Source of the DNA: Lacibacter sp. H407
GTDB taxonomy: Bacteria; Bacteroidota; Bacteroidia; Chitinophagales; Chitinophagaceae
NCBI RefSeq assembly: GCF_037892605.1
Contig: NZ_JBBKTU010000001.1
Location: 3,224,001-3,288,000, forward strand
Direction: 5' to 3'
Length of the DNA stretch: 64,000 nucleotides
Numbering within the stretch: the stretch's first letter is position 1; every line of letters begins with the position of its first letter. The notes under the pieces were generated by a model. The model saw nothing but the letters and a program-made list of their open reading frames with translations. It ran no database searches and had not been told where the DNA came from. Both the position numbers and the translations under genes were made by a program. Shown one piece after another: positions 1,343 to 50,915 of the stretch.

Positions 1343-1345
1343 TAT

Positions 1346-1597: not shown

Positions 1598-1622
1598 TGA
1601 AACGAAAACATGTTATAAAAAC

Positions 1623-1655: not shown

Positions 1656-1671
1656 TCAGTTGTATAATATC

Positions 1672-4410: not shown

Positions 4411-4490
4411 AGAAAATAGATTGCTATAAAAAAGCGGAGATCAACATGAATACAAGTGACCTCCGCTGGTATTAACGTACAGGCAGCTTT

Positions 4491-4907
4491 CTAATTGCCC
4501 TGTTTCTTATCAATAGACTTACCAATAACATAACCGCCACCGGCTCCCAATACACCACCTACCAACACACCGGCAACACGATTCTTTTTACTTACAACAC
4601 CGCCAATTACGGCACCACTTGCACCACCAATAACAGCGCCTTTTGTGGCATTACTCCATTTCTTTTTAGCAGGAGTTGTATTTTGATAAACAACAGGAGC
4701 TGCGGTTGTTTGTTTGCGTTCAACATATCGAACAGTATTTGCGGCCTGCATCTTTTTCATTTCCTGTTCTTCTTTCCATTCCTGGAAAGCAGCAAACTCG
4801 GCTGAATCTAAGGCAGATAATACTTTCGTTTGATCTGTTGTTTCAACTTTTGACTTGCAGGATACCATGATCACTGCGAACGATAAAAGAGTAAATACTT
4901 GTTTCAT
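4491..4907 (-). CDS. Glycine-zipper lipoprotein
   Basis: A 138-residue lipoprotein. MKQVFTLLSFAVIMVSC ends in a lipobox with Cys17. A charged helical region follows (residues 30-75), then a Gly-rich hydrophobic region (about 88-132) with repeated GxxxG spacing, as in GGASGAVIGGVVSKK and GGVLGAGGGYVIGKS, the YMGG-like glycine zipper. Such domains pack against or insert into membranes. The C-terminus is basic. It is a single-gene unit; the function is unknown beyond an envelope role. Confidence 0.82.
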   Translation of the reverse strand: MKQVFTLLSFAVIMVSCKSKVETTDQTKVLSALDSAEFAAFQEWKEEQEMKKMQAANTVRYVERKQTTAAPVVYQNTTPAKKKWSNATKGAVIGGASGAVIGGVVSKKNRVAGVLVGGVLGAGGGYVIGKSIDKKQGN

Positions 4908-5217
4908 AATTTCTGGCTTTTCAGGTTTAAAAAATTGTTTCGAACCATACCGGGTACAATAGAAAAAGCATGCCAGAAAAATTTGAAATTGTTAATGAAA
5001 TCTTGCAAATGAATAAAAACTACCTGATTTTCAGCGGCACTGTTGTTGATTTGTTTTAACAACTCCAAACTGAATGATGCTGCTCTTAACATACGATTAA
5101 GAACTCAGCGAATGGTATTTTTAAAGCAATCAGCACGATCCGGCGAATAAAAAATCCCGGCTGTATCAGTTTTTCATGTCGATAAGCCGGGAGTATAGAG
5201 AAAGAAGCTTTGTACGC
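4908..5217. other. Intergenic region, terminator only
   Basis: 310 bases between two minus-strand lipoprotein genes. It holds the terminator at 5149-5192 and presumably the promoter of the glycine-zipper gene. A 62-codon frame (4904-5092, minus) that ends in an ATGA overlap with that gene has no recognisable protein character and is not called. Confidence 0.5.
5149..5192 (-). terminator. Intrinsic terminator of the 5218-5982 lipoprotein gene
   Basis: TCCCGGCT (5155-5162) pairs with AGCCGGGA (5185-5192) around a 22-base loop. On the minus strand the stem is followed by TTTTTTATT, so it acts on the gene that ends at 5218. Confidence 0.75.
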
Positions 5218-5982
5218 TTATTGTGCTGCTGTAAATGTTGCAGCAGGTGCTGAAGCAGGAGGTGCAATATCAAATGGTTCAGATGATGATTGCGGTACCG
5301 GTGCGTTGGAAAACAACTGAAGCGTTCCGTTTGCCGTTTGTGCAGCATTGCGAATACGCACGGTTATTTTTGGTAACGATGATGTTGAACCGTCGGTGCG
5401 TTCTGTTACTGCCAATACATCAAATGCTACAATGCCGAGATTGGCACCTTGTAAATTTCCGGTTAATGGTGAATAGTTGGTGCTGATGTCGCCATCATAT
5501 ACAACTGCCAGCACTGTTTTGCCAATCAACATCGTTAACCCTGTTGCACGCAATGGTGTTATGTCAGGAATTTTATCCAGCAATACTTCTTTATCATCTT
5601 CACCGCCGCCAAGTTTTGGACCTGCCTGTAAAAAATTGCGTGCTCCATTGGGTGTGGGTCCGGTGCTGATCCAGCTCGAAGGAATTGTTTTGAGTGCATG
5701 CCATCCTTCATCACCAACCTGACCGGTGTACAGATCAATTGTTTTTCCAACATTATTCTGGAAGTAGCGGAGCTGTTGGCGCAAACCAACAGTAGCCAGT
5801 TGATCGTTCACATCATTGGCTGAAAAATTATTGGGCTCATTGCCGTTGTCAATGCTTTCTTCATCAATGATGAGAAATACGGGACTTGAGCCATCGCTTT
5901 CATTGTTGGGATTGTTTTGTCGTTCGCAGGCGGTGTTGCCTAGAAGCAATACGAACACAACTGCATAGCTGGTAAGTTTCAT
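5218..5982 (-). CDS. Hypothetical lipoprotein
   Basis: A 254-residue protein of a family I do not recognise. MKLTSYAVVFVLLLGNTAC carries a lipobox (Cys19), followed by a flexible N/S-rich linker. Residues 35-50 are acidic and Asn-rich (DEESIDNGNEPNN). The body contains Trp- and Gly-rich segments and a C-terminal tail rich in Pro, Ala and Ser that ends AATFTAAQ. It is probably an outer-membrane-anchored periplasmic protein. It is transcribed alone with its own terminator. Confidence 0.7.
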   Translation of the reverse strand: MKLTSYAVVFVLLLGNTACERQNNPNNESDGSSPVFLIIDEESIDNGNEPNNFSANDVNDQLATVGLRQQLRYFQNNVGKTIDLYTGQVGDEGWHALKTIPSSWISTGPTPNGARNFLQAGPKLGGGEDDKEVLLDKIPDITPLRATGLTMLIGKTVLAVVYDGDISTNYSPLTGNLQGANLGIVAFDVLAVTERTDGSTSSLPKITVRIRNAAQTANGTLQLFSNAPVPQSSSEPFDIAPPASAPAATFTAAQ

Positions 5983-6153
5983 GATCGGTGGTTGATTTTC
6001 ACGTTGAATAGATGTAAGATGGACGATGATGTATCGTTGTTAGAAAATATCAAAAATCAAACCAAAGAAAGTAATGCTGTTATGAATTTTTTTTTGTTAA
6101 GCGTTTGTTCGTACACATGTTTTGATCGCTAAACAAGGGTTGTTAATGTGTAT

Positions 6154-7446
6154 CTAAACAGGAAATGAAACATTCACGCTGCACCCTTTGCCCGGCGATG
6201 TGGAAAGCTCCATGTGTCCGTTATAAAGTTGTAACCTGCTTTGCATATTCCGGAAGCCAAGCCCTGCTTTCATTTGTTTTTTATCGAATCCCTTTCCATC
6301 ATCCCGTATAGAAAGATGAACCTGTTCGTTGATTGTTTGCAGCTTGATGTCAATTTGTTTTGCTTCAGCATATTTCAAAATATTGTTCAGTTGTTCCTGC
6401 ACAATACGATAGATCATCAGCAGTTGTTCATCTTTCAGTTCGCTTTCGTTGAATTCAGCAGATGCAAAATGAATGGACGTGTTTTTTACACGATTGATAT
6501 CAGCGATCAGTTTTTCGATCGATTGCTGTAGAGTCATCAATGAAAATTGGGGCGGCTTGATGGTAGCCGACAGCATCCTGATCTCCTGTTGTGCTTCGGT
6601 AACGATCTGTTTTGCCTGGCTGATCATGGAGATATTTTTCTCCTGCGTTACTACTGTATTACTGAGGTACAGGTTCACGACTGTGAGCAGTTGCGATACA
6701 TTGTCGTGCAGTTCTTCGGCCCAACGGTTCCGTTCATTTTCCTGTGCTTTAATAATGGTGCTGGCCAAACGTTGTTTGTGTTTTAACCGCTGGTTGAAAT
6801 AATCAGCCTGCAAATTCCGTAACTGTGTAATGTCCTGGATCTCGCCAACCATACGTTGGGTCTTATTTGTTTTCGCATCACGCAACAGAAACAAACTGCT
6901 GATCACAGAATAATAAATTCCATCAATTCCAAGTAGCTTGTATTCTGTTGTCCATATATCCTGGCTGGACTCGATAGCTGTTTGACACTCTGCAGTGATG
7001 CGTGCACGATCAGTTTTATGAATACGTTCAAGGAACAACGCATAGAAATTATCAATCGTGGTTTTTTTGCCCGGAATAAAGAAGCTCATCTTTTCGTTGA
7101 TGATCGCCGTATTTGTTTCAGTATCATAATCGATCATTCCGCCACGTGCTGCAACGTTGAGCGCTTCAAATTTTTGCTCTAAGGTTGTTTTTCTTTTATC
7201 GGAGTGCCGCAAACGTTCGAAGAGGCTGTAGCTGATGATGAAAAGAAGGATACTTGACAATACAACAAAAGCAATTCCTTTTTGATTCTGCAGATGAACC
7301 AATAAGGTAGCATTGTTGTGGGCAAGTTGTTCGGCCAATGCATCGCTCCAAAGTATCCAGATGATACTGAGCGTAAGATAAATACAGGTGATGAGTAAGG
7401 CGGAACCATATTTCGACAGATTCAAATGGTTGGTGTTTGGGTGCAT
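6154..7446 (-). CDS. Membrane sensor histidine kinase, HisKA_3 type with PAS
   Basis: A 430-residue kinase. Two membrane helices (about residues 13-33 and 54-74) enclose a short periplasmic loop. A PAS-like domain spans about 85-205. The dimerisation domain has the HisKA_3 H-box ERNRWAEELHDNVSQLLTVV, and the ATPase domain has an intact N-box (EQLNNILKYAEA), DDGKGFD and GLGFRNMQSRL. NarL/LuxR-type regulators are the usual partners of this class, but no response regulator is encoded nearby, so it is an orphan here. In contrast to the GAF protein at 2.3 kb all catalytic motifs are present. Confidence 0.92.
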   Translation of the reverse strand: MHPNTNHLNLSKYGSALLITCIYLTLSIIWILWSDALAEQLAHNNATLLVHLQNQKGIAFVVLSSILLFIISYSLFERLRHSDKRKTTLEQKFEALNVAARGGMIDYDTETNTAIINEKMSFFIPGKKTTIDNFYALFLERIHKTDRARITAECQTAIESSQDIWTTEYKLLGIDGIYYSVISSLFLLRDAKTNKTQRMVGEIQDITQLRNLQADYFNQRLKHKQRLASTIIKAQENERNRWAEELHDNVSQLLTVVNLYLSNTVVTQEKNISMISQAKQIVTEAQQEIRMLSATIKPPQFSLMTLQQSIEKLIADINRVKNTSIHFASAEFNESELKDEQLLMIYRIVQEQLNNILKYAEAKQIDIKLQTINEQVHLSIRDDGKGFDKKQMKAGLGFRNMQSRLQLYNGHMELSTSPGKGCSVNVSFPV

Positions 7447-7631
7447 GATCTTGATTTGTCGACAAACGTACAGTTGACGTTATAAGGTTGGAATGAGTAT
7501 AAATAGCAATTAAGCTGACGACAATCATAATTTCATACAAAAAGTTGCAAGGCATTGTGTTAAACTTTTATAGTTGATGATTGTTTTGATTTCCTGTTAC
7601 TTTGTTTTTTTAACTCAATAAAGTGAAGCGT

Positions 7632-8036
7632 ATGAAGCAACTATCTATCCTCTCTGTTCTGTTGTTAGCCATTATTTCCTGCAGCCCGAAACTTGCTCCC
7701 GATCATAATTGGGATATGAAACGGTGGACCTTGTATGAACTCAAAACTGTACCTGTTCAATTGAGCGGTACCGAAAAAGATGCGAATCTCTTATTTGTCC
7801 CTTCACAAAAACAATTCAACGGCACCGGAGGCTGCAACCGCATTTCAGGCAGTTATACATTACCAAAGAAAGGAAGTATTACATTTTCAAATGTGATCTC
7901 TACAAAAATGATGTGTGGCGATCAGGCATTTGAAAATCGCTTTCTGGAAGTATTGAAAGAAGTAGATGGGTACGAAGTTGAGAATAACAGCATGTTACTG
8001 AAAAAAGGAAAAGAAATAGTAATGCGGTTACGATAA
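7632..8036 (+). CDS. META-domain lipoprotein (HslJ-like)
   Basis: A 134-residue lipoprotein. MKQLSILSVLLLAIISC gives a lipobox Cys at residue 17. The rest is a META domain: W-T-L-Y-E-L near the start, the hallmark FNGTGGCNRISGSYTL, then ISTKMMCGDQAFENRFLEVL. This is the family of E. coli HslJ, a heat-inducible outer-membrane protein; the biochemical role is unknown. ATG 7632 is preferred over GTG 7623 because it starts directly at the signal peptide. TTACTTTG shortly upstream resembles a Bacteroidota -7 box with one base missing. Confidence 0.88.
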   Translation: MKQLSILSVLLLAIISCSPKLAPDHNWDMKRWTLYELKTVPVQLSGTEKDANLLFVPSQKQFNGTGGCNRISGSYTLPKKGSITFSNVISTKMMCGDQAFENRFLEVLKEVDGYEVENNSMLLKKGKEIVMRLR

Positions 8037-8102
8037 ATATCTAAGCGATAGGAGCGTGAAAAGTTGAATTAGAAATTTTCAAACTGAGATAGTGTTATAA
8101 AG

Positions 8103-8133
8103 AAACATCCCGCAGTTGCGGGATGTTTTCTTT
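8103..8133. terminator. Bidirectional intrinsic terminator
   Basis: AAACATCCCGC (8103-8113) pairs with GCGGGATGTTT (8118-8128) over a 4-base loop and is followed by TTCTTTAT on the plus strand; the minus strand tail is TTCTTTAT as well. It lies between the convergent META and M28 genes. Confidence 0.88.
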
Positions 8134-8143
8134 ATGATCTTTT

Positions 8144-9688
8144 TTAATCTAAACCACCTCTGCGGGTTGGTTTGGTTTGCGCAGGCCATCTGCCCGGTTC
8201 ACCTGTTCTTGGATTTACCGGTAATACAATTCGCTCACGTGAGGTTTTAGTTTCATCTTCACAAGCCATGTACACAAGTATAGCAGTAAGGATGGCGTTG
8301 CTTTGCACATCATCAAACACGATCTTGTCATAAGTATCACGGTTAGTATGCCATGTATATGAACCATACGACCAACTGAGTGAACTTAATGAAAAAGCAG
8401 GAACACCGGCTGCAACAAACGATGCGTAATCAGATCCGCCACCACCCGGATTACCGGGAAATCTTGTTTCAATCTGCTGACGGATATTGTTGGGCACTTT
8501 TGCCAACCAACGACCGATATAATCGTATGCATGCAAAAAACCTTGTCCGGAAATATTCGCTACACGTCCTGTTCCGTTATCCTGGTTAAAGAGTGCCTGA
8601 ATATTCGGAACAATTTCAGGATGATCTTCTACAAATGCACGTGAACCGTTCAAACCTTGTTCTTCACTTCCCCAATGGCCAACAAGGATCGTACGTTTTG
8701 GATTTGGATATAATACTTTCAGGATACGTATCGCTTCCATCATCACCAATGTGCCGGTTCCGTTATCGGTTGCACCTGTACCACCATCCCAGGAATCGAA
8801 GTGTGCCGACAGCATCACATATTCATTTGGTTTTTCGGTTCCTTTTATTTCAGCAACCGTATTGTATGTGGGAACTACACCATTTTCTTTTGAATCGGCA
8901 CGTACACTCAGCCTTGGAATATTTCCAGCTTCGGTTAGGCGATACAGTAAGCCATAATCTTCCAGTGCAATATCAATGGTGGGAACTTTTTTTGTGTTGG
9001 CACCAAAAATTTTATTTACACCAAAGCCTGCACTCCAGTTACTCATGATCACGCCAACAGCTCCTGCATTTTCCAACGCTGCAGGTAATGTTCTTGTAGT
9101 GTAGCCTGTTTTGCTGATTCGTTTGCTCCATGCAGATGACGCTTCAGTGCGTTCTTTTTTCATTTTCTCAATCGATTCCTTTGTACCAAACTCATCCCAG
9201 TTATAATCGGGGCGGCCGGTTGGTTGCAACATGGAGATCAATACAAATTTTCCTTTTACAGTTGGTAACCATTTTTGAAACGCAGCTGAATCGGCGAGGT
9301 CCGGAATCAATACTACATCAGCCGTAACAGTTTTACCGCCGGTGTTGGGGCTCCATGCCAATTGCATGCCTTCCAATGTTTTTACACGTGGATGAATCAT
9401 ATCCACATGTGTAATACCACGCTGCCATCCACGCCACTCGCCCCATTTTTCGTTGCGTGCAGTTATTCCCCAGCTCATGTATTTGGCTACTGCCCAATCA
9501 TGCGCCTGTTGCATTTGCGGACTACCCACCAAACGTGGCCCGATGCCATCCATTAATTCCTGTCCCAGTTTTTTTAAATGTGAATTGTCGGTAGCCTCTT
9601 TGATAATGCGGCTCACCATCACAGAATCTTTTTGCTGTGCAAAGCCAACAGTGCTGAGCAGCAGCAACGCAAATAATAATCGGATCAT
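8144..9688 (-). CDS. Secreted M28 family metallopeptidase
   Basis: A 514-residue exported peptidase with signal peptide MIRLLFALLLLSTVGFAQQ. The M28 di-zinc centre is visible: SAHFDSWDGGTGATDNGTGT (first His, bridging Asp), SEEQGLNGS (catalytic and metal Glu), NQDNGTG (Asp) and YTWHTNRDTYD (last His). A PA-like inserted domain lies around residues 130-250. The arrangement resembles carboxypeptidase Q-type enzymes (blood plasma glutamate carboxypeptidase group), which cut dipeptides or N-terminal residues. It is probably periplasmic and used for peptide nutrition. Single gene with terminator at 8103. Confidence 0.93.
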   Translation of the reverse strand: MIRLLFALLLLSTVGFAQQKDSVMVSRIIKEATDNSHLKKLGQELMDGIGPRLVGSPQMQQAHDWAVAKYMSWGITARNEKWGEWRGWQRGITHVDMIHPRVKTLEGMQLAWSPNTGGKTVTADVVLIPDLADSAAFQKWLPTVKGKFVLISMLQPTGRPDYNWDEFGTKESIEKMKKERTEASSAWSKRISKTGYTTRTLPAALENAGAVGVIMSNWSAGFGVNKIFGANTKKVPTIDIALEDYGLLYRLTEAGNIPRLSVRADSKENGVVPTYNTVAEIKGTEKPNEYVMLSAHFDSWDGGTGATDNGTGTLVMMEAIRILKVLYPNPKRTILVGHWGSEEQGLNGSRAFVEDHPEIVPNIQALFNQDNGTGRVANISGQGFLHAYDYIGRWLAKVPNNIRQQIETRFPGNPGGGGSDYASFVAAGVPAFSLSSLSWSYGSYTWHTNRDTYDKIVFDDVQSNAILTAILVYMACEDETKTSRERIVLPVNPRTGEPGRWPAQTKPTRRGGLD

Positions 9689-9809
9689 GTTGATACAGTT
9701 GAAATTTAGTAATGAATAGCCCGAAAATAAGGAATGATGGCCGATGGAAAAGCCCGGAATTGCAGAATGTGATGAGTGGAAAATGAAACAGGCCCATTCA
9801 GCCGGAGTA

Positions 9810-10790
9810 TCAGTTTTTTTCTTGAATGGATCGCAGAATTTTTAATGCATGCTCCCGTGAATTTTCAATAAACAGACGGGAAGTGTTCATGCCGCCGCAA
9901 ATAACACCGGCGAGATAAATATTGGGCACATTTGTTTGATGGGTTTCTTCGTTGTAATCAGGCTTGCGTACATCATCATTTGATAATGCAATCCCCATCT
10001 TTTCTAAGAAACGCAAGTTGGGTTGATAGCCGGTTGCCGCAATTACCCAATCGTTTGGAATTGTTTTGATACCATCAGGTGTTTGAATGATCACTTCGTG
10101 TTCTTTTATTTCAATGATCGATGAATCATAATAAGCTTTGATGGATCCTTCTTCAATACGGTTCACTACATCAGGACGAACCCAATACTTTACACGTTCG
10201 CCCACTTCTTTTTCACGGATCATCATTGTAACATCAGCGCCTTTGCGCCATGTTTCCAAAGCAGCATCCACTGCCGAATTATTTGCACCCACAACCATTA
10301 CTTTTTGAAAGGCATAAAAGTGAGGGTCTTTGTAGTAGTGTGTTACTTTCGGTAAGTCTTCGCCTTTTACATTGAGTAAATAAGGAATATCATAAAAGCC
10401 TGATGCAATGATGATATGATCAGCAGTATAGTTTTGTTTGGTACTTTGAATAGAAAAATTATTTGCTGATCGTTCAACTTGTTTTACTTCTTCAAATAAG
10501 TTGATGTTGAGTTTGTAAGCAACTGTAACTCTCCTGTAATACTCCAATGCTTCTGCTCTTGTTGGTTTTGCATTTACTGATACAAACGGCACATCCCCGA
10601 TTTCCAAACGTTCAGAAGTGGAGAAGAACGTCATGTTGGAAGGATAGTTGTACAACGAATTCACCAAACATCCTTTTTCTAAAATAAGATAGGGGATACC
10701 TGCTTTCTTTGCTTCAATGCCGCAGGCCAAACCAATGGGCCCGCCGCCGATGATGATGATGGGATAATGTGTTGTTTGCATGAACAACAA
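9810..10790 (-). CDS. ypdA: YpdA family bacillithiol disulfide reductase-like flavoprotein
   Basis: A 326-residue FAD/NAD(P)H oxidoreductase. The FAD fold is at the N-terminus (IIIIGGGPIGLACGIEAKKAG), the second dinucleotide fold at about residue 165 (VMVGANNSAVDAALE), and the FAD-closing motif near the end (NIYLAGVICGG). No CxxC redox pair is present, as in YpdA/Bdr, which reduces bacillithiol disulfide with NADPH. The conserved N-terminal region LVNSLYNYPSNMTFFSTSERLEIG is typical of YpdA. Start may be ATG 10790 or ATG 10781. It lies 23 bases after the rRNA methyltransferase gene and is probably in the same operon. Confidence 0.9.
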   Translation of the reverse strand: MLFMQTTHYPIIIIGGGPIGLACGIEAKKAGIPYLILEKGCLVNSLYNYPSNMTFFSTSERLEIGDVPFVSVNAKPTRAEALEYYRRVTVAYKLNINLFEEVKQVERSANNFSIQSTKQNYTADHIIIASGFYDIPYLLNVKGEDLPKVTHYYKDPHFYAFQKVMVVGANNSAVDAALETWRKGADVTMMIREKEVGERVKYWVRPDVVNRIEEGSIKAYYDSSIIEIKEHEVIIQTPDGIKTIPNDWVIAATGYQPNLRFLEKMGIALSNDDVRKPDYNEETHQTNVPNIYLAGVICGGMNTSRLFIENSREHALKILRSIQEKN

Positions 10791-10813
10791 ATATACGGCA
10801 GGGTAGGATTGGT

Positions 10814-11992
10814 CTACTCCACAACCTTCGCTTCCCTTCTGCTGCCACTATACAATTCATATTCCAGCAAACGACAATCGATGGTACTGTTGTAAAATTC
10901 AATTCTGCGTTTCGCTTTCAGTCCGATCTTTTTTGCAAGTTCCATATTACCGGTAAATACATAACCGAAATAACCGCCGCATTTCTGTTTCATAAAATCA
11001 CCAATGCGTGCATAGGTGGCTTCCAGTTCCTGTATATCACCCAGTCGTTCACCATATTCCGGATTCACCATCATGATGCCTTTTGCATCAGCAGGAACTT
11101 CTGTATCAGCAAAATCACAAACAGCAAATTCAATTAACTTTTGCACGCCTGCTGCGATCGCATTCTTCTTTGCATTCTCAATTGCTTTCGGACTATAATC
11201 AGTCGCAATAATTTTCAAATCAGGCACATCAATGATCTGTTCTTCCAGCAACGCATCTTCTTTCACATACACACTCTCATCATAACCCTGCACATGCATG
11301 AATGCATAATTGGTGCGGTACAAACCCGGTCTGCGGTTTGTAGCGATCAGCGCTGCTTCGATCGCCAGCGTACCCGAACCACACATCGGATTAATGAATG
11401 GCGACACACGATCCCACACACTTGCATAAATCGTAGCTGATGCCAACCCTTCCAACATTGGTGCAAGACCGGGGATTTTTCGGTAACCATGCCTCGCCAA
11501 TGAATCACCCGATGTATCAACAAACACTTCGGCATCTTCATTCTTCCAGAACAAATGAATCACAGTGCCGGTTAACTCAGCACCTGTTGATGGACGTGTA
11601 CCTCTGATGTCACGAAGACGATCAACAATGGCATCCTTCACCCGCAGGTTGGCAAACATGCTGTTGTTAATGGTTGGATTGTTTACATTACTCGTCACCG
11701 AAAAATAACCGGGATCAGGTAAAATGTTTTCCCATGCGTAATCTTTCAAATTCTTGTATACATCATCGCCATCATTGGCTTCAAACTGTTTTAAACTGTA
11801 CAACACCTGGCTCGCACAACGCAAATTCAAATTGAGTTTAATACAATCGTTGATGGTGCCCGTCAACTTTACACCGGTAACAAATGCTTCATCAATGGCA
11901 AAGCCCAATTCCTTTACTTCATTTTCAAGATAAGGAGCAATGCGTTTATGGCAAGTGATGATGATGGAGGAGGGAGTAGTGAACAAGTTCAT
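10814..11992 (-). CDS. rlmL: THUMP-domain 23S rRNA guanine-N2 methyltransferase (RlmL-like)
   Basis: A 392-residue class I SAM methyltransferase of the COG0116 group. Residues about 45-155 form the THUMP RNA-binding domain; the SAM-binding core begins with FINPMCGSGTLAIEAALIA (about 205) and continues with the ATDYSPKAIENAKKN segment. E. coli RlmL modifies G2445 of 23S rRNA; this protein matches only the RlmL half and lacks the RlmK half. The catalytic tetrapeptide reads NPEY (NPEYGERLG) where the family usually has NPPY. Start codon at 11992 adjoins a short ATGGTTAATGG-type word tract. Confidence 0.87.
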   Translation of the reverse strand: MNLFTTPSSIIITCHKRIAPYLENEVKELGFAIDEAFVTGVKLTGTINDCIKLNLNLRCASQVLYSLKQFEANDGDDVYKNLKDYAWENILPDPGYFSVTSNVNNPTINNSMFANLRVKDAIVDRLRDIRGTRPSTGAELTGTVIHLFWKNEDAEVFVDTSGDSLARHGYRKIPGLAPMLEGLASATIYASVWDRVSPFINPMCGSGTLAIEAALIATNRRPGLYRTNYAFMHVQGYDESVYVKEDALLEEQIIDVPDLKIIATDYSPKAIENAKKNAIAAGVQKLIEFAVCDFADTEVPADAKGIMMVNPEYGERLGDIQELEATYARIGDFMKQKCGGYFGYVFTGNMELAKKIGLKAKRRIEFYNSTIDCRLLEYELYSGSRREAKVVE

Positions 11993-12063
11993 GGTTAATG
12001 GTTGATGGTTAAGAGAATGCAGAGTGGCTCAGGGTATTTGCCCTAAGCCCTACAACTTCAACC

Positions 12064-13392
12064 TTATTTTGCGACTGCAATTTTCACTTTCTTCCCTTTG
12101 ATCTTTTGATCTTTAATTAAGTGAAGTGTGTGGTTGGCTTTTATTTTTTTCACGGCAACAAAGGCAAAAAAATCTTTTACTTCAATCAAACCGATATCTT
12201 CTTTTTTCAATTCACCTTTCTGACTCAGGAAGCCAACAATATCCACCTTGTTCACCTTATCTTTTTTACCGGCAGCAATAAACAACGTACTCCATTTTGG
12301 TTTTTCCGGAATTTCTGCAGTTTCAGGTAATTCAATTTGTTCTGCATCAGCAGGAATATACGCCGGCATTTTTTCATCCGGACCAAGAATTACAATAGCA
12401 GTGCCGCTTGCATCCATCCGTGCGGTACGTCCGTTGCGATGCGTAAACGCATCTTCTGTATGTGGTAAATGATAATGAACAATGTAACGGATATGTGCAA
12501 TGTCCAAACCTCTTGCAGCAAGATCAGTGGTAACCAAAATATTCGATGTGCCGTTTCTGAATTTACACAAGGCCGCATCACGTTCCTGTTGTTCCATGGC
12601 ACCATGATAAAATACATTGAGAATATCACGTTCTTTCAACAGTTCGCTGGTGCGTTCTACTGATTCACGATGATTGCAGAAAATGATCGTTGAACGGTTG
12701 CCCAACATACATACTAAGCGAAACAATGTTTCGAGTTTATCTTTTTCCGGACTGTGTAATGTTTTAATGGCAAGTCCGGTATCCGAATCTTCGTTGCCGC
12801 TGAGGAAATCAAGTTTCACCGGTTCGTTCAAACCAACAAACGAAGGAATTTCTTCCAGGTTGGTGGCCGACGTCAGCACCCGTTTTTTTATGGAAGGCAG
12901 TGAACCGATAATGAAACTCATTTCTTCCTGGAAACCCAGCTCCAGCGATTTATCAAATTCATCCAGCACCAATGTTTCAATACTGGCCACGGTAATATTT
13001 CCACGGCGGATATGATCAGCCAAACGGCCGGGTGTACCAATGAGCAAAGTGGGCGCCTGCTTTAAATTGTTTTCTTCGATCTCCCGTTTATGACCACCAT
13101 AGCAACAACTCACTTTCAGATTGAGCTGCATGCTTTTAAACACATGCTCGATCTGGATGGCCAGCTCACGTGACGGCACAATGATCATTGCTTTTGTTTG
13201 ATTGCCTGCCGCCTGTAACTGTTCCACCAGGGGTAACAGAAAGGCGAGTGTTTTACCTGAGCCTGTTGCAGATAACAGGATAATGTCTTTTTCTGATGCC
13301 TGTGCTTCCATGGAAGCCACCTGCATTTCGTTTAACGCTTTGATTTTTACGTTTGTCAGGACCTCTTCCAGCCAAACCGGTTTTTGTTGCAT
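12064..13392 (-). CDS. dbpA: DEAD-box-like RNA helicase with DbpA RNA-binding domain
   Basis: A 442-residue ATP-dependent RNA helicase. Visible motifs are the Q-motif region, Walker A SATGSGKT, PSRELAIQI, TPGRLADH, motif II as DEFD instead of DEAD, TSATN for motif III, and in domain 2 TTDLAARGLDIA and HRNGRTARM. The C-terminal 75 residues (STLFIAAGKKDKVNKVDIVGFL ... IKGKKVKIA) form a DbpA-type RNA-binding domain, which in E. coli DbpA recognises helix 92 of 23S rRNA. Role: ribosome assembly. The upstream TTG at 13410 extends the frame but ATG 13392 (MQQKPVW) is the natural start. Confidence 0.9.
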   Translation of the reverse strand: MQQKPVWLEEVLTNVKIKALNEMQVASMEAQASEKDIILLSATGSGKTLAFLLPLVEQLQAAGNQTKAMIIVPSRELAIQIEHVFKSMQLNLKVSCCYGGHKREIEENNLKQAPTLLIGTPGRLADHIRRGNITVASIETLVLDEFDKSLELGFQEEMSFIIGSLPSIKKRVLTSATNLEEIPSFVGLNEPVKLDFLSGNEDSDTGLAIKTLHSPEKDKLETLFRLVCMLGNRSTIIFCNHRESVERTSELLKERDILNVFYHGAMEQQERDAALCKFRNGTSNILVTTDLAARGLDIAHIRYIVHYHLPHTEDAFTHRNGRTARMDASGTAIVILGPDEKMPAYIPADAEQIELPETAEIPEKPKWSTLFIAAGKKDKVNKVDIVGFLSQKGELKKEDIGLIEVKDFFAFVAVKKIKANHTLHLIKDQKIKGKKVKIAVAK

Positions 13393-13627
13393 AGCGGCGA
13401 AGGTAATCAATTGTGGGGAGGTGGGTGTTTAGGGCAAGAATATTGAGTATAATAACTGAGTTGTCAACCATGAATAAGTGGCTATTAACTATCAAAACAC
13501 AGTTATTGATGTTGGTGGTTGTACTAACAACAATACAAAAAATTGAATAATAAGTAATTGATATACAGGTTTTGTTAATTGGGAGATGTTGCGTATAATA
13601 GCAGAAATATAAGTGTTGGCTGATATT

Positions 13628-14791
13628 ATGAAAACCCTGCTATCAATATCATATTTCCTACTCTGTGCAAATTGCTTTGGACAGACAAAGCTCCAAAAAC
13701 TTATTGTCGCAGAATATAGAATAGACAGTCCACGAATTGGAAACTTTACCTATCTCGTTTCTTACAATTTTTCGAATGGAATTTTGCTTTCAAAAGACAC
13801 AATACTTGGCGTGCCTACCAATAGAAAAGGTATTGCAGGCTCATATGTTAGGTATGATCTTGGAATAAATTTTATTTATAAAAATAGGTATGTAATATCA
13901 GGTATAGGAAATGTAATTGACATTAAAACTAAGTCGTTTGTCATGGAAGAAAGCGACGACTTTATATCAGCACAGGGCGACACTTTAATTTTTCACAGGG
14001 ATAATATATTTACTGGTACTGGTTACTTAATGCTGGATTTAAAATCAAGACAATACAAATTTATCAATCAAGATAAATTGGATAAAGACAAAAACAGGGG
14101 AAGTTCCCCAGACAAATTACATTATCTCTCAATAGACCAATCAAAACTTCCATACAAAATATGGTTATACAATTCCAACAGTAAAAAGAAATTGGTAGTT
14201 CAGGATGCTGGACACGGACCTAACATAATGTACTCAAGTCAGTTCCCAACAATAGAAACAACTTGGCTAAACAATCATGCTTTTCTCTATGCCGTACATG
14301 AGACTAAGTTTGACGATGAGAAAAAAGATTATTCAAAAGTTACATTTCGTCAATATGACATAACCACTAATTCTGACCAAGTATTCTTTGTTCTGGATTC
14401 AGTCAGCAATGGAAAAACAAATGGAAGATTTTTTATTGACAATGTTGGACAATTAATTTATAGAAGTAGTGGATGGTCTTATCATTTAGTAGATACAGTG
14501 AATCGACTTTTAATAGATTATCCTTTTTATGAATTAGGCTTTGGATTTTCGACAGCCAATAAAGCAGAACAAGACGGAACGGTTCTAAAATACAATAACA
14601 TAGACATAGGTAAACTTTGGTGTTCAAATGAAGTAGTCGGTGAAGATGTAATTGCTGTAGAGTTTGGTGACATTGGTTCTAATCTTGCATATCCAAAAGG
14701 ATTTATGACTTGGTCAAAACAAACAAATAAATGGACGACAATAAGCATTCCTTGGCTTTCAAATCTCATCGGTTGGGTGAACGAAGAATAA
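13628..14791 (+). CDS. Hypothetical secreted protein, possibly beta-propeller
   Basis: A 387-residue protein of unknown family. MKTLLSISYFLLCANCFGQ is a signal peptide with the A-x-C-F-G-Q style cleavage site common in this phylum. The mature part alternates short hydrophobic strands with turns (YLVSYNFSNGILLSKD, GYLMLDLKSRQYKF, KIWLYNSNSKKKLVVQD), which suggests a WD40/TolB-like propeller. Base composition is AT-rich and codon use (AAA, ATA, TTA) differs from the flanking helicase and thiolase genes, suggesting acquisition. ATG 13628 is chosen over GTG 13613. The spacer behind it is an imperfect palindrome (see 14806-14980). Confidence 0.72.
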   Translation: MKTLLSISYFLLCANCFGQTKLQKLIVAEYRIDSPRIGNFTYLVSYNFSNGILLSKDTILGVPTNRKGIAGSYVRYDLGINFIYKNRYVISGIGNVIDIKTKSFVMEESDDFISAQGDTLIFHRDNIFTGTGYLMLDLKSRQYKFINQDKLDKDKNRGSSPDKLHYLSIDQSKLPYKIWLYNSNSKKKLVVQDAGHGPNIMYSSQFPTIETTWLNNHAFLYAVHETKFDDEKKDYSKVTFRQYDITTNSDQVFFVLDSVSNGKTNGRFFIDNVGQLIYRSSGWSYHLVDTVNRLLIDYPFYELGFGFSTANKAEQDGTVLKYNNIDIGKLWCSNEVVGEDVIAVEFGDIGSNLAYPKGFMTWSKQTNKWTTISIPWLSNLIGWVNEE

Positions 14792-14805
14792 CATCAGTCA
14801 ACATT

Positions 14806-14995
14806 GGTATTGCCAATAGTGGGGCTTGACATTGGAACAATCAGCAGCGGTAATTATGCCGTACATTTGTTCGGGATATGACCATATAGCCCAGCTTTAG
14901 TTCTTAATATTTAACTTTCTCAAAAGCAAGGCAGTTGTTCTAGGCGGACGAATATAAAATTCCCCACCATTGGCAATACCTGCTCGTTGTATGCC
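14806..14995. repeat. Palindromic spacer after the 13628 gene
   Basis: GGTATTGCCAATAGTGGGG (14806-14824) is the inverted copy, 18 of 19 bases, of CCCCACCATTGGCAATACC (14962-14980). Immediately after the right arm, CTGCTCGTTGTATGCC (14980-14995) is the inverted copy, 15 of 16 bases, of GGCATACAACAAGCAG at 15565-15580, so the next gene is itself bracketed by inverted repeats. The arms enclose about 137 bases of AT-rich sequence without an ORF. Confidence 0.75.
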
Positions 14996-15016
14996 ACTTT
15001 ATCGGACACCCCACAA

Positions 15017-15553
15017 ATGACAAGAAGACAAACTCTAAGGCTAATTTTTCATAAAGACACAATCGCATTACTTGCTTCATTGGTTTTTTTATGGTTTACA
15101 ATAGGATTGCTGGATGACATTAATTATCGTTTTGAAGACTTGACTAAACACAGCGGACAATTAGTGAAAATTGACAGTGTGATTACGAGGGTTAAGGACA
15201 AACCACTTTTCAAAGAAATCACAAAAGAGTTGAGACTAACAATTGACACAGATAACAAATACTTTACTTCTATAACGACAAAAGACTTTGGTTATATTAC
15301 AGGCAATGTTTCAATAGGCGACACAGTACATATTTTTACAAAGAAAAAACTGTGGGGAATTTTTGGAATGAAAAAGGCAAGAGACATAAGCCATTTAGCA
15401 AAAGGCGACATAGTTATAGTTGACTTTGAAAAATACCAACAATCATTATCAGGTGTTTTTCTTGTTACTTTAGTTGCTGCAATCGGGTTTTTCATTTATT
15501 ATTTCGTTAGGACAAAACGACGATATTATTTCGATATGCATAGTAAACTTTGA
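15017..15553 (+). CDS. Hypothetical two-helix membrane protein
   Basis: A 178-residue protein I cannot assign. MTRRQTLRLIFHKDTIALLASLVFLWFTIG places one membrane helix at about residues 16-36, and a second is near the C-terminus (about 140-160, VFLVTLVAAIGFFIYYFV) before a basic tail. The 100 residues between carry alternating strands (KIDSVITRVKD, RLTIDTDNKYFTSI) and would be extracytoplasmic. ATG 15017 is better than TTG 14987. AT-rich like its neighbours and bracketed by the inverted 16-mers at 14980 and 15565. Confidence 0.65.
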   Translation: MTRRQTLRLIFHKDTIALLASLVFLWFTIGLLDDINYRFEDLTKHSGQLVKIDSVITRVKDKPLFKEITKELRLTIDTDNKYFTSITTKDFGYITGNVSIGDTVHIFTKKKLWGIFGMKKARDISHLAKGDIVIVDFEKYQQSLSGVFLVTLVAAIGFFIYYFVRTKRRYYFDMHSKL

Positions 15554-15564
15554 TGACAAAAAGC

Positions 15565-15768
15565 GGCATACAACAAGCAGTTTTGCAGCAGCGGGGGCGA
15601 CGCAAAGCGTCGGTCATCACCTGTAATTCTATTTAGCTTTTTTAACGGTTGACATTTATCTATTTGGCTTTTGAATAAAAATTTATCTTTAGTGTCAGAG
15701 TTCAGCACTCGTCGCCAGATGCGACGTAAAAGAATGCCCCCTACCGCAAAGCTGTGAACATTGTAGGC
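15565..15768. repeat. Palindromic spacer after the 15017 gene
   Basis: The left arm (15565-15598; GGCATACAAC, GCAGTTTTGCAGCA, GCGGGGGC) is an imperfect inverted copy of the right arm (15736-15768; GCCCCC, ACCGCAAAGCTG, TTGTAGGC). Smaller hairpins lie inside each arm: CGACGC-AAA-GCGTCG and GTCGC-CAGAT-GCGAC. The right end TTGTAGGC resembles TTGTATGCC at the end of the previous spacer. No ORF is present. Confidence 0.7.
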
Positions 15769-15839
15769 AATACAGTTCGACATTACCGCCTAAATGAAAT
15801 GACAATCACTAACCATATCAATTGACACTTTATTAATTC

Positions 15840-16247
15840 ATGAGAAGAACATATATTTTTTTGCATTGGGGTTTGACACTTTTACTTGCGCCATTTACAT
15901 CACAAGCCATTCTCTACATCTGGGGGACAAACCCACGTCAAGTAGTCGGACTATTAGAAGTTTATCCAATTACTTTAATATTTAGTATTCTTTTCTCTTT
16001 ACCAACTTTTATAGTTTACTTGACAAGCTTTTATATCTTATCAAAATATAATATTAGTTCGACTATTTCTAAACTAATACTAGTTGGAATAGCTGTTCTG
16101 GGTGTTTTTGTAACAATGACAATAATCAAAGGCAGCATGAGTCAAGACATCACAATCGCTTATTGTTTGACAGCTTTTGTAGTGGGACTTAGTCTAAAAC
16201 TAAAAACTGTCAATTTAAAAGCTCAAAACAAATCTATCATGACATGA
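15840..16247 (+). CDS. Hypothetical four-helix membrane protein
   Basis: A 135-residue protein, mostly hydrophobic, with four predicted helices (about residues 5-26, 44-67, 80-98 and 104-120) and a short polar basic tail. No family is recognised. It is strongly AT-rich. It lies in the same orientation as the two preceding orphan genes and follows the second palindromic spacer by about 70 bases. A 9-base hairpin (AAGCAATGT at 16268, ACATTGCTT at 16289) lies 20 bases after the stop but lacks a T-tract. Confidence 0.65.
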   Translation: MRRTYIFLHWGLTLLLAPFTSQAILYIWGTNPRQVVGLLEVYPITLIFSILFSLPTFIVYLTSFYILSKYNISSTISKLILVGIAVLGVFVTMTIIKGSMSQDITIAYCLTAFVVGLSLKLKTVNLKAQNKSIMT

Positions 16248-16445
16248 AGTGCTGTCTTCTTTTTTCTAAGCAATGTCTCCCGCAGGGCACATTGCTTACT
16301 ACGGTGCAAAACGTAACATCCCTTTCAGGAGAATAACTACGAATAAGTTTAATTTGAGTCACAAGCGAGATGTCTGGCCAAATTATAGTAATCACAAAGG
16401 GATCATTTAGAAAGGCCTGATTAATAAACTTAATACAGTAAAATT

Positions 16446-47818: not shown

Positions 47819-48880
47819 TCAATTTATTGGCATCAGAAACCGGTCTGATTTTAAGGTCAATTTATTGTTTGATGCCGTGAATAGTTTGTTTAAATTGTAA
47901 TAAGGAATGATTTTGGTTCCATGTGTGCTATGTAGTGTTCCGTCTGGTTGTTTAAATTCCAGTATAACATCAATTCGCTCCACCTTCCATGCATCCATAA
48001 AGAAATTCGGAGAATAATAAACATCAATTATAAGACCTGAGCGGGTTATTCTGTTAAGTGAAACCTCATCTGGCATATAATCTGCTTCCTTTCCGTTGCC
48101 ACAAGGATAGTAGATCATACCCGCAGGCACTGTTACATTGCTATTTGCTTTGAACTCGTATTTCAGGTCAGATTGTTGACCATTTGTGCTGCCAATTAAA
48201 GAAGGGTTGCTGCTCTCGTACAAAGAAGCTGCTCCTGGTATTGAGCAATTTATTGAAACCATTGATGGTGCTTCTTTACTGTCATTGCCTGTATAAAAAA
48301 TCAGCTTCGTGGAAATAAGATAATATTCTTCATAATCAGTTCTATCGCATCTGAAGTTTTTCACCGGTGGATTTTTTGTGGCCGATGGCGGAGGCGTGGT
48401 AGAAGTTGTGTTATTCGTAGTTGGTGGTTGCACATTTGTTTGAGTAATGCGAGTAGTATTTTGAATGGTTGAAGTTTTTAAAGAGGTGGTGCTTTGTTTT
48501 GAAACAACCCATATTCCTTGGCCTTTTACGTTTGCCCCGGCACCTAACGTACATGTAAGTTTATTGCTTGGGGCATCAAAAGAACCGGAAAAGGAATATG
48601 TTTCATTATTGCTGAACTGTTTAAAGGTTCCTTCTATAGTATTGTTGTTAATTACATATTTCCCCTTGGCAGCAGATCCCATAATAAATTCTCCAGTGGC
48701 AGTTAGTTCAAAGTTTACTGCTTGAGTTCGTTGGCCCAGATCGTTTGTTTGCACGCCCGTCCAAATTCCTGCGAAAGATATTGAAGTATTGGTGGGGAGA
48801 GTCTTGATAGTGGTAATTTGGGCATGTGCCGAACTGAACAGAAGGGCAGAAAGTACAAGTATCTTTTTCATGTGCTTCAT
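47819..48880 (-). CDS. Hypothetical secreted protein
   Basis: A 353-residue protein with signal peptide MKKILVLSALLFSSAHAQ (ATG 48880 or 48871). An N-terminal unit of about 110 residues reads like a lipocalin/avidin-type strand set (FAGIWTGVQTNDLGQRTQAVNFELTATGEF). A Thr/Pro linker (about 125-165, with TTTPPPS) separates it from a C-terminal domain with Cys, Tyr and Asp-rich segments (FRCDRTDYEEYYLISTK). No function recognised. Divergent from the tail-sheath-like gene with a 190-base spacer. Confidence 0.72.
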   Translation of the reverse strand: MKHMKKILVLSALLFSSAHAQITTIKTLPTNTSISFAGIWTGVQTNDLGQRTQAVNFELTATGEFIMGSAAKGKYVINNNTIEGTFKQFSNNETYSFSGSFDAPSNKLTCTLGAGANVKGQGIWVVSKQSTTSLKTSTIQNTTRITQTNVQPPTTNNTTSTTPPPSATKNPPVKNFRCDRTDYEEYYLISTKLIFYTGNDSKEAPSMVSINCSIPGAASLYESSNPSLIGSTNGQQSDLKYEFKANSNVTVPAGMIYYPCGNGKEADYMPDEVSLNRITRSGLIIDVYYSPNFFMDAWKVERIDVILEFKQPDGTLHSTHGTKIIPYYNLNKLFTASNNKLTLKSDRFLMPIN

Positions 48881-49071
48881 TTTAGTAAACAAATATATTT
48901 ATAAACACAAGGGTGAGGTATCCCTGAAAACGATGATATTCCGAAGGAAAAATCCTGTAAAAAGGGGAGGCGCATTTATAAAACAGATGATTTTTTTGTA
49001 GAGTGACAGTTAGCGTATATGCTAAATTTAAAACAACAGAAATTGTTCTTTAATTATACATTAGCGTAACC

Positions 49072-49545
49072 ATGAAATGGATATTTTGGATAATGTTGTT
49101 TAGCGTTCCTGTTGCAAGTTTGGCACAGGACACTGTTCAACCTATTAAACTGTTAGAATCACAAAAAACACGTCTTTTATCATCAGCTTCTATTGCGAAA
49201 TTACCTGTAACAACTTCGCAAAGGATCTATGGGCGTATTCATCACTTTCTTGATTCAATGGTTGCTACCGCCGATAAAAGCGCTCTATTTATAAAAAAAA
49301 TCAAAACAGGCGTTTCTGAAATTCTGAATGAATTTTGGAAGGCCGGTTTTTTATTGGGCGATAAAACAAGCAACTCTTTTTATGTGATCTGTGGTGCGCA
49401 AACTATGACTGCAAAAGATATCGCAGAGGGAAGGTTAGTGATTATTGTTGGATATGCTTTAACTAAAATTGGCGAGTTTGAAATCAAACGCTTTGAACGA
49501 ATGTTGATCAATAAAACTCCATTGCAATACGCTTCCAATTTTTGA
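49072..49545 (+). CDS. Secreted protein resembling a contractile tail sheath C-terminal domain
   Basis: A 157-residue protein with signal peptide MKWIFWIMLFSVPVASLAQ. From residue about 45 on it follows the C-terminal domain of phage tail sheath proteins (PF17482 type): RIYGRIHHFLDSM, then VSEILNEFWKAGFLLGD, SFYVICGAQTMTAKDIAEGRLVIIVGYA and FEIKRFERM. The family pattern is W-x-x-G-x-L-x-G, F-x-V-x-C, T-M-T-x-x-D-I-x-x-G-R-L and P-A-E-F; here F-W-K-A-G-F-L-L-G, F-Y-V-I-C, T-M-T-A-K-D-I-A-E-G-R-L and G-E-F are visible. The large sheath N-terminal domain is absent and no tail or injection gene is nearby. A domesticated surface or periplasmic protein is the inference. Confidence 0.78.
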   Translation: MKWIFWIMLFSVPVASLAQDTVQPIKLLESQKTRLLSSASIAKLPVTTSQRIYGRIHHFLDSMVATADKSALFIKKIKTGVSEILNEFWKAGFLLGDKTSNSFYVICGAQTMTAKDIAEGRLVIIVGYALTKIGEFEIKRFERMLINKTPLQYASNF

Positions 49546-49548
49546 GGG

Positions 49549-50814
49549 TTATTCAAAATCTTTATAGATCAAATGCCGTTTCCGTATTGCTTTAAATTTC
49601 TGTAAGCCCGGCTCCCAACTTTTGCGAATTTCTTCTTCTGTTTTTCCTTCTTTGATTTGTTGCATCAACGTACTGTTGCCGGCCAGTTTATTAAAGAAAA
49701 AATCAACGGGTTTGCCACTGGCTGGCGCAAGAAAGAATTCATCTTTTTTCGGAAAAAGTTGATAAGCTTCCAGTAGCCATTTCACCTGTACTTTACTTCC
49801 TGCGGTATAAAATACTTTGTCCTTTGGTCCGCTCAAATCCCAGCCATAACATAGCTGATCTTTCAGCTTCGGATCTTTTGCGCCATCTCTGCTGCGTGGT
49901 GTAAACGATTTTAATGTTTTCGGTAATAAGGGATGTCCGAATATCTGAAATGGAATATTCGTGCCACGCCCTTCACTCAACACAGTGCCTTCAAAAAAAC
50001 AAGTGGAAGGGTAGAGGTAAATGGATTGAATGTCGGGTAAGTTGGGTGAAGGTTTGATGGGCAGTTCGTATTTTGTATTATGTGTGTAATTGTTGCAGGG
50101 AATTACGCTTAATTCAAACTTGCCATGCTTGCCTGCAATTTCATACAATCTCGGATCGATCCATTCTTCATCAAAGATCATTTGTGCATATTCGCCAATC
50201 GTCATACCATACACGATCGGGATGGGCTGCATACCTACAAATGATTTGTATGCAGGTTCAAGCACAGGGCCATCAACATAATGTCCATTGGGGTTTGGAC
50301 GATCCAGCACGATCATATACTTGCCATATTCCATTGCCGCTTCCATGTAATATTCCAGCGATGAAATGAATGTATAAAACCGCACACCTACATCCTGTAT
50401 ATCAAACAGCATCACATCCACATCTTTGAGATCTTCTTTGGATGGTTTGCGTTTGCTGCCGTATAACGATATTACTTGAATGCCTGTTTTTGGATCTTTG
50501 TAATTGCCGATTTTTTCACCGGCATCTGCCGTACCACGAAAACCATGTTCCGGTCCAAAGATCACTTTGATGTTTACGCCCAGTTTTCGCAACGTATCCA
50601 CCAGGTGTGTTTTGCCAACAATTGAAGTTTGATTTGCAAAGATGGCAACGCCTTTACCTTTCAACAAATGCAGGTATTGCCCCATATTTTCGGCACCGGT
50701 CTGGAATTCCCTGTTTTTGATGGAACCACGGTTGTAGCCGGATCGTTTGTTTTTTTGTTGCGCCTGGGCCATCAACACCGCCGAAAAAGCCAATAATAAT
50801 AGGAGTTGCTTCAT
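49549..50814 (-). CDS. namZ: Exo-beta-N-acetylmuramidase NamZ-like (DUF1343)
   Basis: A 421-residue secreted enzyme (signal peptide MKQLLLLLAFSAVLMAQAQ). DUF1343 landmarks are KGKGVAIFANQTSIVGKTHLVDTL, FGPEHGFRGTADAGE, MLFDIQDVGVRFYTFISSLEYYMEAA, DRPNPNGHYVDGP and FEGTVLSEGRGTNIPFQIFGHP. NamZ from Tannerella and Bacillus removes N-acetylmuramic acid from the non-reducing end of murein chains. ATG 50814 starts the signal peptide. It ends 3 bases after the convergent tail-sheath-like gene. Confidence 0.92.
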   Translation of the reverse strand: MKQLLLLLAFSAVLMAQAQQKNKRSGYNRGSIKNREFQTGAENMGQYLHLLKGKGVAIFANQTSIVGKTHLVDTLRKLGVNIKVIFGPEHGFRGTADAGEKIGNYKDPKTGIQVISLYGSKRKPSKEDLKDVDVMLFDIQDVGVRFYTFISSLEYYMEAAMEYGKYMIVLDRPNPNGHYVDGPVLEPAYKSFVGMQPIPIVYGMTIGEYAQMIFDEEWIDPRLYEIAGKHGKFELSVIPCNNYTHNTKYELPIKPSPNLPDIQSIYLYPSTCFFEGTVLSEGRGTNIPFQIFGHPLLPKTLKSFTPRSRDGAKDPKLKDQLCYGWDLSGPKDKVFYTAGSKVQVKWLLEAYQLFPKKDEFFLAPASGKPVDFFFNKLAGNSTLMQQIKEGKTEEEIRKSWEPGLQKFKAIRKRHLIYKDFE

Positions 50815-50915
50815 TACAAGTGGTTTGTAGCTCAAAGTTGCACAAATAGTGCGGTAAAAAAAATTTATTGGCAGGGCTGGCATTTGCCAGTAATTTTGGC
50901 GGAAATTTTAAAATT

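Follow-up and report, generated by a model that had tools for sequence, protein, structure and literature searches.

Known contractile sheaths are parts of machines built in the cytoplasm, and the strands within an assembled sheath are already paired. According to excerpts of two structural reports (PMC10457771, PMC8894135), the N- and C-termini of neighbouring subunits pair in a 'handshake' that extends the beta-sheet of the C-terminal domain of the subunit in the next ring, and gp25-like initiators use the same handshake platform. An excerpt of a sheath survey describes a common core built from N- and C-terminal parts (PMC9230969), and part of a further report (PMC8213781) describes LuxR-type (GerE) regulators that adjoin eCIS loci and are in some cases preceded by a kinase gene. 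Keyword searches of open-licence PubMed Central papers retrieved nothing on stand-alone sheath domains that are exported, or on exported Hcp in the setting considered here.

Here, we describe a gene of Lacibacter sp. H407 that encodes a single sheath C-terminal domain behind a signal-peptide-like start, located in a window of 64,000 nucleotides (the whole stretch of DNA analysed). Features that go beyond the first-pass annotation of this gene are its membership in a family that seems not to need a sheath, the linkage to a two-component system, the partial retention of a promoter, a shared upstream element and an Hcp-like companion.

Sheath homology of a short protein

The gene occupies positions 49072..49545 of the plus strand, and the translation of its 157-aa ORF contains all four motifs from which the first-pass annotation had proposed a secreted, stand-alone sheath C-terminal-like domain. 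This domain assignment is borne out by PDB searches, a family profile and a tree, and is firmer than the motifs alone allowed. In a single-sequence phmmer search against the PDB, eCIS sheaths ranked first, with All3325 (7b5h, E 4.3e-9) followed by 9ezm (1.7e-8), 7adz (1.9e-7) and Afp3 (6rao, 2.1e-7), all aligned within residues 68-143 of the window protein. Sheath or sheath-like chains made up 15 of the 18 rows up to E 10 (12 of these at E up to 0.01), the other three being HisF (E 0.09-1). A profile built from six relatives reached 16 distinct PDB sequences with E values no higher than 0.1, and its best match (2.3e-26) covered residues 370-464 of a sheath 466 residues long; this HMMER search, used in place of the HHpred run proposed earlier, matched sheath-type chains only. 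PHROG 17610 ('tail sheath') also matched the window protein (E 7.4e-6), as did the eCIS sheath of the same genome, with 36.6% identity over 71 residues (E 2.7e-9), and within the window this sheath matched only the 49072-49545 gene at E up to 0.01. PF17482 was not reached in the Pfam scan of the window protein, the sole row being a chance match to PF14381 (0.054), and the NCBIfam scan returned nothing. Judged from these sequence comparisons, homology to the sheath C-terminal domain is more than chance resemblance. The N-terminal sheath domains are missing, as already stated in the first-pass annotation: no PF04984 match was found by Pfam, and both the N-terminal arm and the subtilisin-like domain are absent from the 157-aa ORF.

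The sheath C-terminal-domain core spans residues 47-144 (49210..49503, plus strand), as delimited by PDB matches, a structure model and Foldseek, and is modelled as two long helices, three strands and two short helices. Its last strand (residues 137-144, 49480..49503, plus strand), assigned by DSSP on the model, aligns with the last strand of sheaths. The core is preceded by a linker (residues 19-46, 49126..49209, plus strand) that is mostly of low confidence in the model, inside which alignments revealed a conserved [KTQ][TNK][RKN][LI][LIM] segment at residues 32-36. Conservation is uneven along the domain. The family keeps 21 of the 30 sheath-conserved columns in residues 85-141 and only one of 15 in residues 47-83, a column being counted as kept when at least four of six stand-alone proteins carry the sheath residue; rows were trimmed before residue 47, so that earlier columns are uncounted. 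The AlphaFold2 model (mean pLDDT 74.9) has a confident core at about residues 48-145, with blocks in 51-140 at 78-96, its fold being partly given because the input alignment held sheath domains. With this model, the first 35 Foldseek matches were titled as contractile systems or sheath proteins; TM by query length was at most 0.49, and rmsd was near 10 Å for many matches and 2.8-5 Å for others. The large values may reflect a terminal strand that takes a different path in assembled sheaths.

A signal-peptide-like start

Signal peptides were judged by eye and with a crude hydropathy score. In the window protein, residues 1-18 (49072..49125, plus strand) form a predicted signal peptide with the N-terminus MKWIFWIMLFSVPVASLA|QDT, a hydrophobic stretch ending in ...SLA|QDT, where the bar marks the likely cut before Gln19. 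Similar starts were recognised by eye in all seven family members, in agreement with the signal peptide proposed earlier, and none was evident in 23 complete ordinary sheaths, each of which carries a [TS]PG[VI]Y arm near its start. The latter count derives from 42 loci, with six sheath rows cut by the locus end omitted and two loci (L023 and L081) giving no row. Hydropathy scores of the seven family members ranged from 1.8 to 3.5. For 22 of the 23 ordinary sheaths the range was 0.9-1.9, which overlaps at the G130 member (1.8); the remaining sheath (L033) scored 2.6 through an over-long start.

A Gln follows the likely cut in six of the seven family members (by eye), a pattern named the 'Bacteroidetes Q-rule' in an excerpt of PMC5837995. 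With its hydrophobic signal peptide, cleavable site and Gln at +1, the window protein fits, by eye and hydropathy, a Sec/SPI-exported Bacteroidota protein and is probably exported to the cell envelope. With regard to the T9SS, the Pfam scan shows no C-terminal T9SS signal domain, and the chain ends 13 residues past the sheath domain.

Distribution of the family and selection

Among 14 Lacibacter genomes, full-length short relatives were found in that of the window (G000), in G011 (an ortholog with 66% identity to the window protein), in G003 (36%) and in G002 (24%). A family-level scan of 294 genomes added two short members from other genera, in G130 and G229. The seventh member, of 483 aa, comes from G009; it has a signal-peptide-like start, ends in the sheath domain and matches PF17482 just under the cut-off (E 2.2e-5). 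The family thus comprises six short proteins in three genera and one 483-aa protein. The gene for the latter (L059:7893-9344, minus strand) lies near another TPR-kinase/LuxR pair, and the N-terminal part of its product has no assigned family. Order (396 genomes) and phylum (395 genomes) scans, which overlap with the family-level scan, yielded, in the matches that were listed, no additional stand-alone protein of full length. More members may exist, since the phylum scan had a threshold of E 1e-22 and only about ten first-look candidates per genome were scored.

Several weak short matches were rejected: a 292-aa protein without a signal peptide (G099), a protein with a signal-peptide-like start lacking the sheath pattern (G253), a frame opposite another gene (G119), a sheath in pieces (G136) and, in G017, a sheath C-terminal fragment without a signal peptide, encoded by a 111-aa ORF in a 160-aa open frame. 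The G017 fragment (L054:8021-8356, plus strand), the only match of that genome among those listed in the family and order scans, is possibly the remnant of a lost eCIS.

A tree was built from 40 hand-picked rows, comprising 7 family members, 26 sheaths (with that of the window genome among them) and 7 rows from other bacterial and viral contigs. It split the seven family members from the 33 other sheath-type domains with a branch support of 100/97. The root of this tree is arbitrary, and its inner order is unsafe because of long branches.

Comparison of the window gene with its G011 ortholog gave a pN of 0.23 for a pS of 0.75, with pN values of 0.22, 0.26 and 0.21 for residues 1-20, 21-74 and 75-157, respectively. 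The gene is under purifying selection and, given this ratio and the related family, encodes a selected protein. In-frame Met codons follow the window start at residues 8 and 63, and a start codon lying later had been named earlier as what would remove the signal peptide. Since pN is low relative to pS in residues 1-20 (which hold 11.5 synonymous sites only) and in 21-74, a later start, with its loss of the predicted signal peptide, is unlikely; a pseudogene was likewise rejected.

A kinase/regulator pair and a shared upstream element

In G011, G003 and G002, the sheath-domain gene comes directly after a pair formed by a kinase gene and then a LuxR-type regulator gene, the kinase being composed of TPR repeats, HisKA_3 and HATPase (domains scanned in G011). 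The pair lies within about 1 kb of the sheath-domain gene in G229 and about 5 kb in G130, and in G009 some 5 kb separate a related kinase/LuxR pair and the 483-aa gene. Within the stretches compared, kinase homologs occur at all six relatives' loci and the regulator at five of six, the G009 regulator lying just past its compared stretch. At the corresponding syntenic position, G004 and G005 contain the pair but no sheath-domain gene. No eCIS genes were recognised in the stretches with the sheath-domain/kinase loci. An astacin-like metallopeptidase gene was observed beside kinase pairs (L053:3386-4675, plus strand; PF01400, E 3.2e-6), and the products of L052:11727-13157 and L061:12499-13815 (both plus strand) fall in the same blastp cluster (single linkage, E up to 1e-4).

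In the window, the kinase and regulator are absent and the downstream neighbours are conserved, including the gene at 49549..50883 (minus strand) that anchors the syntenic position. On the other side lies a divergent gene (47819..48880, minus strand) with the promoter region in common; it encodes a 353-aa product with a signal-peptide-like start that belongs to one blastp cluster with the products of genes divergent from the kinase in sister genomes. Between the two, blastn and alignment identified a retained part of the region upstream of the sisters' kinase gene (48920..49012), with matches of 48920-49001 to L050 (E 1.7e-5), 48948-48970 to L061 (E 7e-4) and 48949-49012 to L051 (E 0.11). The simplest account would be a deletion in the window lineage that removed the pair and left the sheath-domain gene behind part of the old promoter.

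This retained region contains an operator-like element of 18 bp, ATCCTGTAAAAAGGGGAG, at 48952..48969 (plus strand), about 103 bp upstream of the start codon, and a degenerate first copy at 48920..48937 (plus strand). Several relatives have two copies, and several kinase promoters display ATCCCTTAAAAnnnGGAT followed about 37 bp on by a ATCATGTAAAAAGGGGAG-like copy. The element is palindrome-like and was searched with the pattern ATCMYKNWAAANNNGGAK, drawn without the instances at L052:4125, L104:12170, L102:5768, L100:2355 and L101:7435. In 21 stretches totalling 393,518 bases, window included, 22 matches were found for an expectation of about 0.3, calculated from the in-ORF rate in the window genome (4 per 4.87 Mb). 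All 20 intergenic matches are located 46-103 bp upstream of a gene: a kinase gene in 13 cases, a sheath-domain gene in three (at -103 in the window, -46 in G229 and -56 in G130) and another gene with a signal-peptide-like start in four. The other two (L052:11751 and L104:5156) lie in the over-long predicted start of the gene divergent from the kinase. Counted by kinase, the element is upstream of 11 of 14 close full-length genes (L050, L051, L061, L052 with two, L053, L099, L100, L101, L102, L103, L104, L106 and L117; the 3' part of the L102 kinase lies in L101, and the cut L105 kinase and more distant kinases are excluded), and is absent at the second L052 kinase and at those of L106 and L117. 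The pattern scan found no copy in L054, L055, L057, L058, L059, L060, L105, L106 and L117, which include an eCIS locus (L060), the G009 483-aa gene (L059) and the G011 Hcp-like/kinase locus (L117); in G009, neither the 483-aa gene nor the nearby kinase (L059, L106) has the element. Across the 4.87-Mb window genome, the pattern gave six matches versus one for a reversed-pattern control. Four of the six are inside ORFs and only two are intergenic, one before the window gene and one between an Hcp-like gene and a paralogous kinase on contig 2; these two are not independent finds because the pattern was drawn from instances including them. By its upstream element, the sheath-domain gene is a candidate member of a TPR-kinase/LuxR regulon, with the element as the presumed binding site of the regulator.

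A candidate role in the cell envelope

In the reading that we prefer, and to which we give middling confidence, a sheath domain was recruited to a two-component envelope regulon, where it would probably act by beta-strand pairing. The family would have taken its single domain, the C-terminal (handshake) one, from a contractile sheath of eCIS type and combined it with a Sec-type signal peptide, its most likely work site being the cell envelope, within a two-component regulon of exported proteins and not in a contractile machine. A membrane kinase, whose TPR part we infer to be periplasmic, and the LuxR-type regulator would act through a ATCCCTTAAAAnnGGGAT-like operator on the kinase pair itself, on the sheath-domain gene and on rows of genes for exported proteins, including an Hcp-like (tube-fold) protein. 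In the window, where the pair appears to have been lost and the gene to stand directly behind part of its old promoter, control could come from a paralogous pair encoded on another contig. The likeliest action would be beta-strand augmentation, in which the domain would pair with strands supplied by further copies of itself or by a different exported protein. What could permit such pairing is the retained second half of the sheath domain, last strand included, along with the short conserved segment that precedes the domain. The surface polymer suggested in the first-pass annotation would be one possible use. Since the N-terminal part is absent here, the common core described in the excerpt of PMC9230969 argues against the domain being used in unchanged form.

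The main rival, which we regard as unlikely, makes the protein a periplasmic accessory of the sensor kinase that binds its TPR part and tunes signalling, by feedback or as a ligand adaptor. Such a role would suit a gene placed directly downstream of the kinase and regulator in three Lacibacter genomes, a kinase that joins TPR repeats to HisKA_3 and the co-expression suggested by the shared element. However, the gene persists in the window despite the loss of the adjacent pair, the pair stands without this gene in G004 and G005, and in both G130 and G229 other genes intervene between the pair and a sheath-domain gene that is preceded by its own element copy.

An Hcp-like companion

The direct neighbour of the sheath-domain gene in G229 and G130 is a convergent Hcp-like gene whose product has a signal-peptide-like start and matches PF05638 (E 3e-9 and 1.5e-7, respectively). 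In both genomes, the sheath-domain gene has its own element copy, and the Hcp-like gene ends a row behind another copy, the same-strand rows headed by the elements at L052:4125 and L104:12170 each ending in an Hcp-like gene. A five-member Hcp-like profile matched 11 PDB sequences (best 7.8e-5), eight of which are named Hcp, hemolysin-coregulated or type VI proteins or fusions; the others are PA0085, presumably Hcp1, and two sequences named 'Fimbrial protein' (7fcf).

More distant Hcp-like copies, with PF05638 scores below the cut-off, occur in the window genome (L103:7427-7942, minus strand) and in G011 (L117:11983-12495, plus strand), both with signal-peptide-like starts and both divergent from TPR-kinase/LuxR pairs whose kinase is paralogous; in these two genomes, the Hcp-like and sheath-domain genes are at separate loci. 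The Hcp-like protein of the window genome was found by BLAST from its relatives. With PF05638 it scores only 0.0023, below the cut-off; it was not reached by the PF05638 genome scan, and a single-sequence PDB search returned nothing. Since G178 and G103 have an Hcp-like gene without a sheath-domain gene, the two do not form an obligate pair.

Other PF05638 proteins with signal-peptide-like starts were observed at L095, L096 and L097 (G178, G004 and G005), from which exported Hcp-like proteins may exceed the sheath-domain family in spread. Tandem proteins with signal-peptide-like starts precede the Hcp-like gene at L052:4207-7030, L104:9288-12106 and L105:3439-8891; they begin alike (F-D-[IL]-x-[ST]...W), and the one scanned (L052:5636-7027) matched no Pfam family above the cut-off.

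An exported sheath domain and an exported Hcp-like tube protein under one two-component system could be imagined to assemble into a non-contractile tube, ring or fibre in the periplasm or at the cell surface, an outcome that we consider quite unlikely. In that case, components of contractile injection machines would have been dismantled and put to new use beyond the cytoplasm.

Contractile machines in the carrier genomes

No tube, baseplate or spike gene had been noticed in the window by the first-pass annotation, and tblastn with 12 ORFs from the genome's own eCIS stretch and three Hcp-like proteins likewise gave no such match there. Its description of a protein without a machine needs to be qualified. 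The genome search that it had proposed for other sheath or tube genes uncovered an eCIS gene row on the same contig as the window and far away from it (C1, about 68-84 kb), the eCIS sheath being the only PF17482 match in the whole genome. In addition to the sheath, this row holds two gp19-type tube genes, CIS_tube/LysM, hub, PAAR, gp25 and Baseplate_J genes. Within L060 (G000:C1:68000-87999), the row extends from about 951 to 16253 and its sheath is of 689 aa (8 proteins scanned). What stands is that G003, assembled as one contig, and G130 carry the family gene and have no PF17482 match, 'no sheath' meaning here no PF17482 sheath; the family therefore seems not to need one, and its use need not involve a contractile machine. 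PF17482 sheaths are present in the other five of the seven carriers (G000, G002, G009, G011 and G229), and G005, G006 (a fragmented genome) and G010 have sheaths without the sheath-domain gene, so that family presence does not follow eCIS sheath presence.

These distributions bear on a further alternative, in which the protein is an accessory or decoy of contractile systems whose targets are the handshake strands of sheaths, be they from eCIS, tailocins or phages; it would assist the cell's own eCIS or jam incoming systems at the cell surface. The conserved columns and last strand kept in the second half of the domain would serve this purpose, PF17482 sheaths do occur in five of the seven carriers, and LuxR-type regulators, some with a kinase gene, stand beside eCIS loci in the excerpt of PMC8213781. 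It is nevertheless decidedly improbable, considering the two carriers that keep the gene without a PF17482 sheath, the three genomes with sheaths and no gene, the eCIS stretch L060 without an element copy and, in the excerpts of PMC10457771 and PMC8894135, the strands of assembled sheaths that are already paired.

Sheath initiators and sheath decay

Stand-alone versions of this fold exist naturally as gp25-like sheath initiators, and one of these could have gained a signal peptide, in which case the protein would not be sheath-derived. The 36th Foldseek match, 2ia7, bears the title 'putative tail lysozyme' and is presumably a gp25-like protein. XM1 gp15 is described in an excerpt of PMC10457771 as resembling the sheath C-terminal domain and holding the sheath N- and C-termini. 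Yet the window protein has no PF04965 or PF10934 match, the gp25 of its own genome scoring 2.4e-22 as a positive control, the 16 profile matches are sheath or sheath-like chains, and 35 fold matches with contractile-system or sheath titles come before 2ia7. A gp25-like identity was rejected on the absent Pfam matches and the sheath-only profile matches, and such an origin is highly improbable; the tree was built without gp25-like proteins.

That the gene is a decaying eCIS sheath fragment with a signal-peptide-like stretch in front by chance is scarcely credible: sheath fragments without a signal peptide do exist elsewhere (G017), but here pN/pS is about 0.3, without saturation correction, and full-length relatives in three genera group together.

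Comparison with known systems

If recruitment to an envelope regulon is the correct reading, an exported and selected sheath domain that does not need a machine would mean that handshake chemistry has been recruited for envelope work; considered alongside the Hcp-like protein, it would suggest that components of both sheath and tube can be used anew beyond the cytoplasm. With 157 aa, one gene and one operator, the module is compact and testable, and allows one to ask whether a lone sheath domain polymerises.

Compared with eCIS sheaths (All3325, the AlgoCIS sheath, Afp2/Afp3 and Pvc2/Pvc3; PF04984 plus PF17482), the window protein has a homologous C-terminal domain, with W-x-x-G-x-L-x-G, F-Y-V, T-M-T-x-x-D-I and G-x-A...E-F in common. 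In contrast to these sheaths, it has no subtilisin-like or N-terminal sheath domains and no TPGVY arm, does not retain, in the first half of its domain, most of the columns conserved in sheaths, begins with a signal-peptide-like start and is encoded outside a machine locus. The gp25-like initiators (PF04965, PF10934; AlgoCIS Alg9, XM1 gp15) are, like the window protein, small and stand-alone, with the fold of the sheath C-terminal domain, and mimic the handshake as described in excerpts of PMC10457771 and PMC8894135; they are part of the baseplate of a machine and are not the closest to the window protein by sequence. The Hcp-like neighbours match the T6SS Hcp family (PF05638) and, unlike T6SS Hcp, have a signal-peptide-like start; T6SS genes were not systematically sought nearby, and none was recognised. 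Finally, a LuxR-type (GerE) regulator and a kinase are found here as they are beside eCIS loci but, unlike the eCIS-adjacent pairs, the pair described here adjoins a single sheath domain and genes with signal-peptide-like starts.
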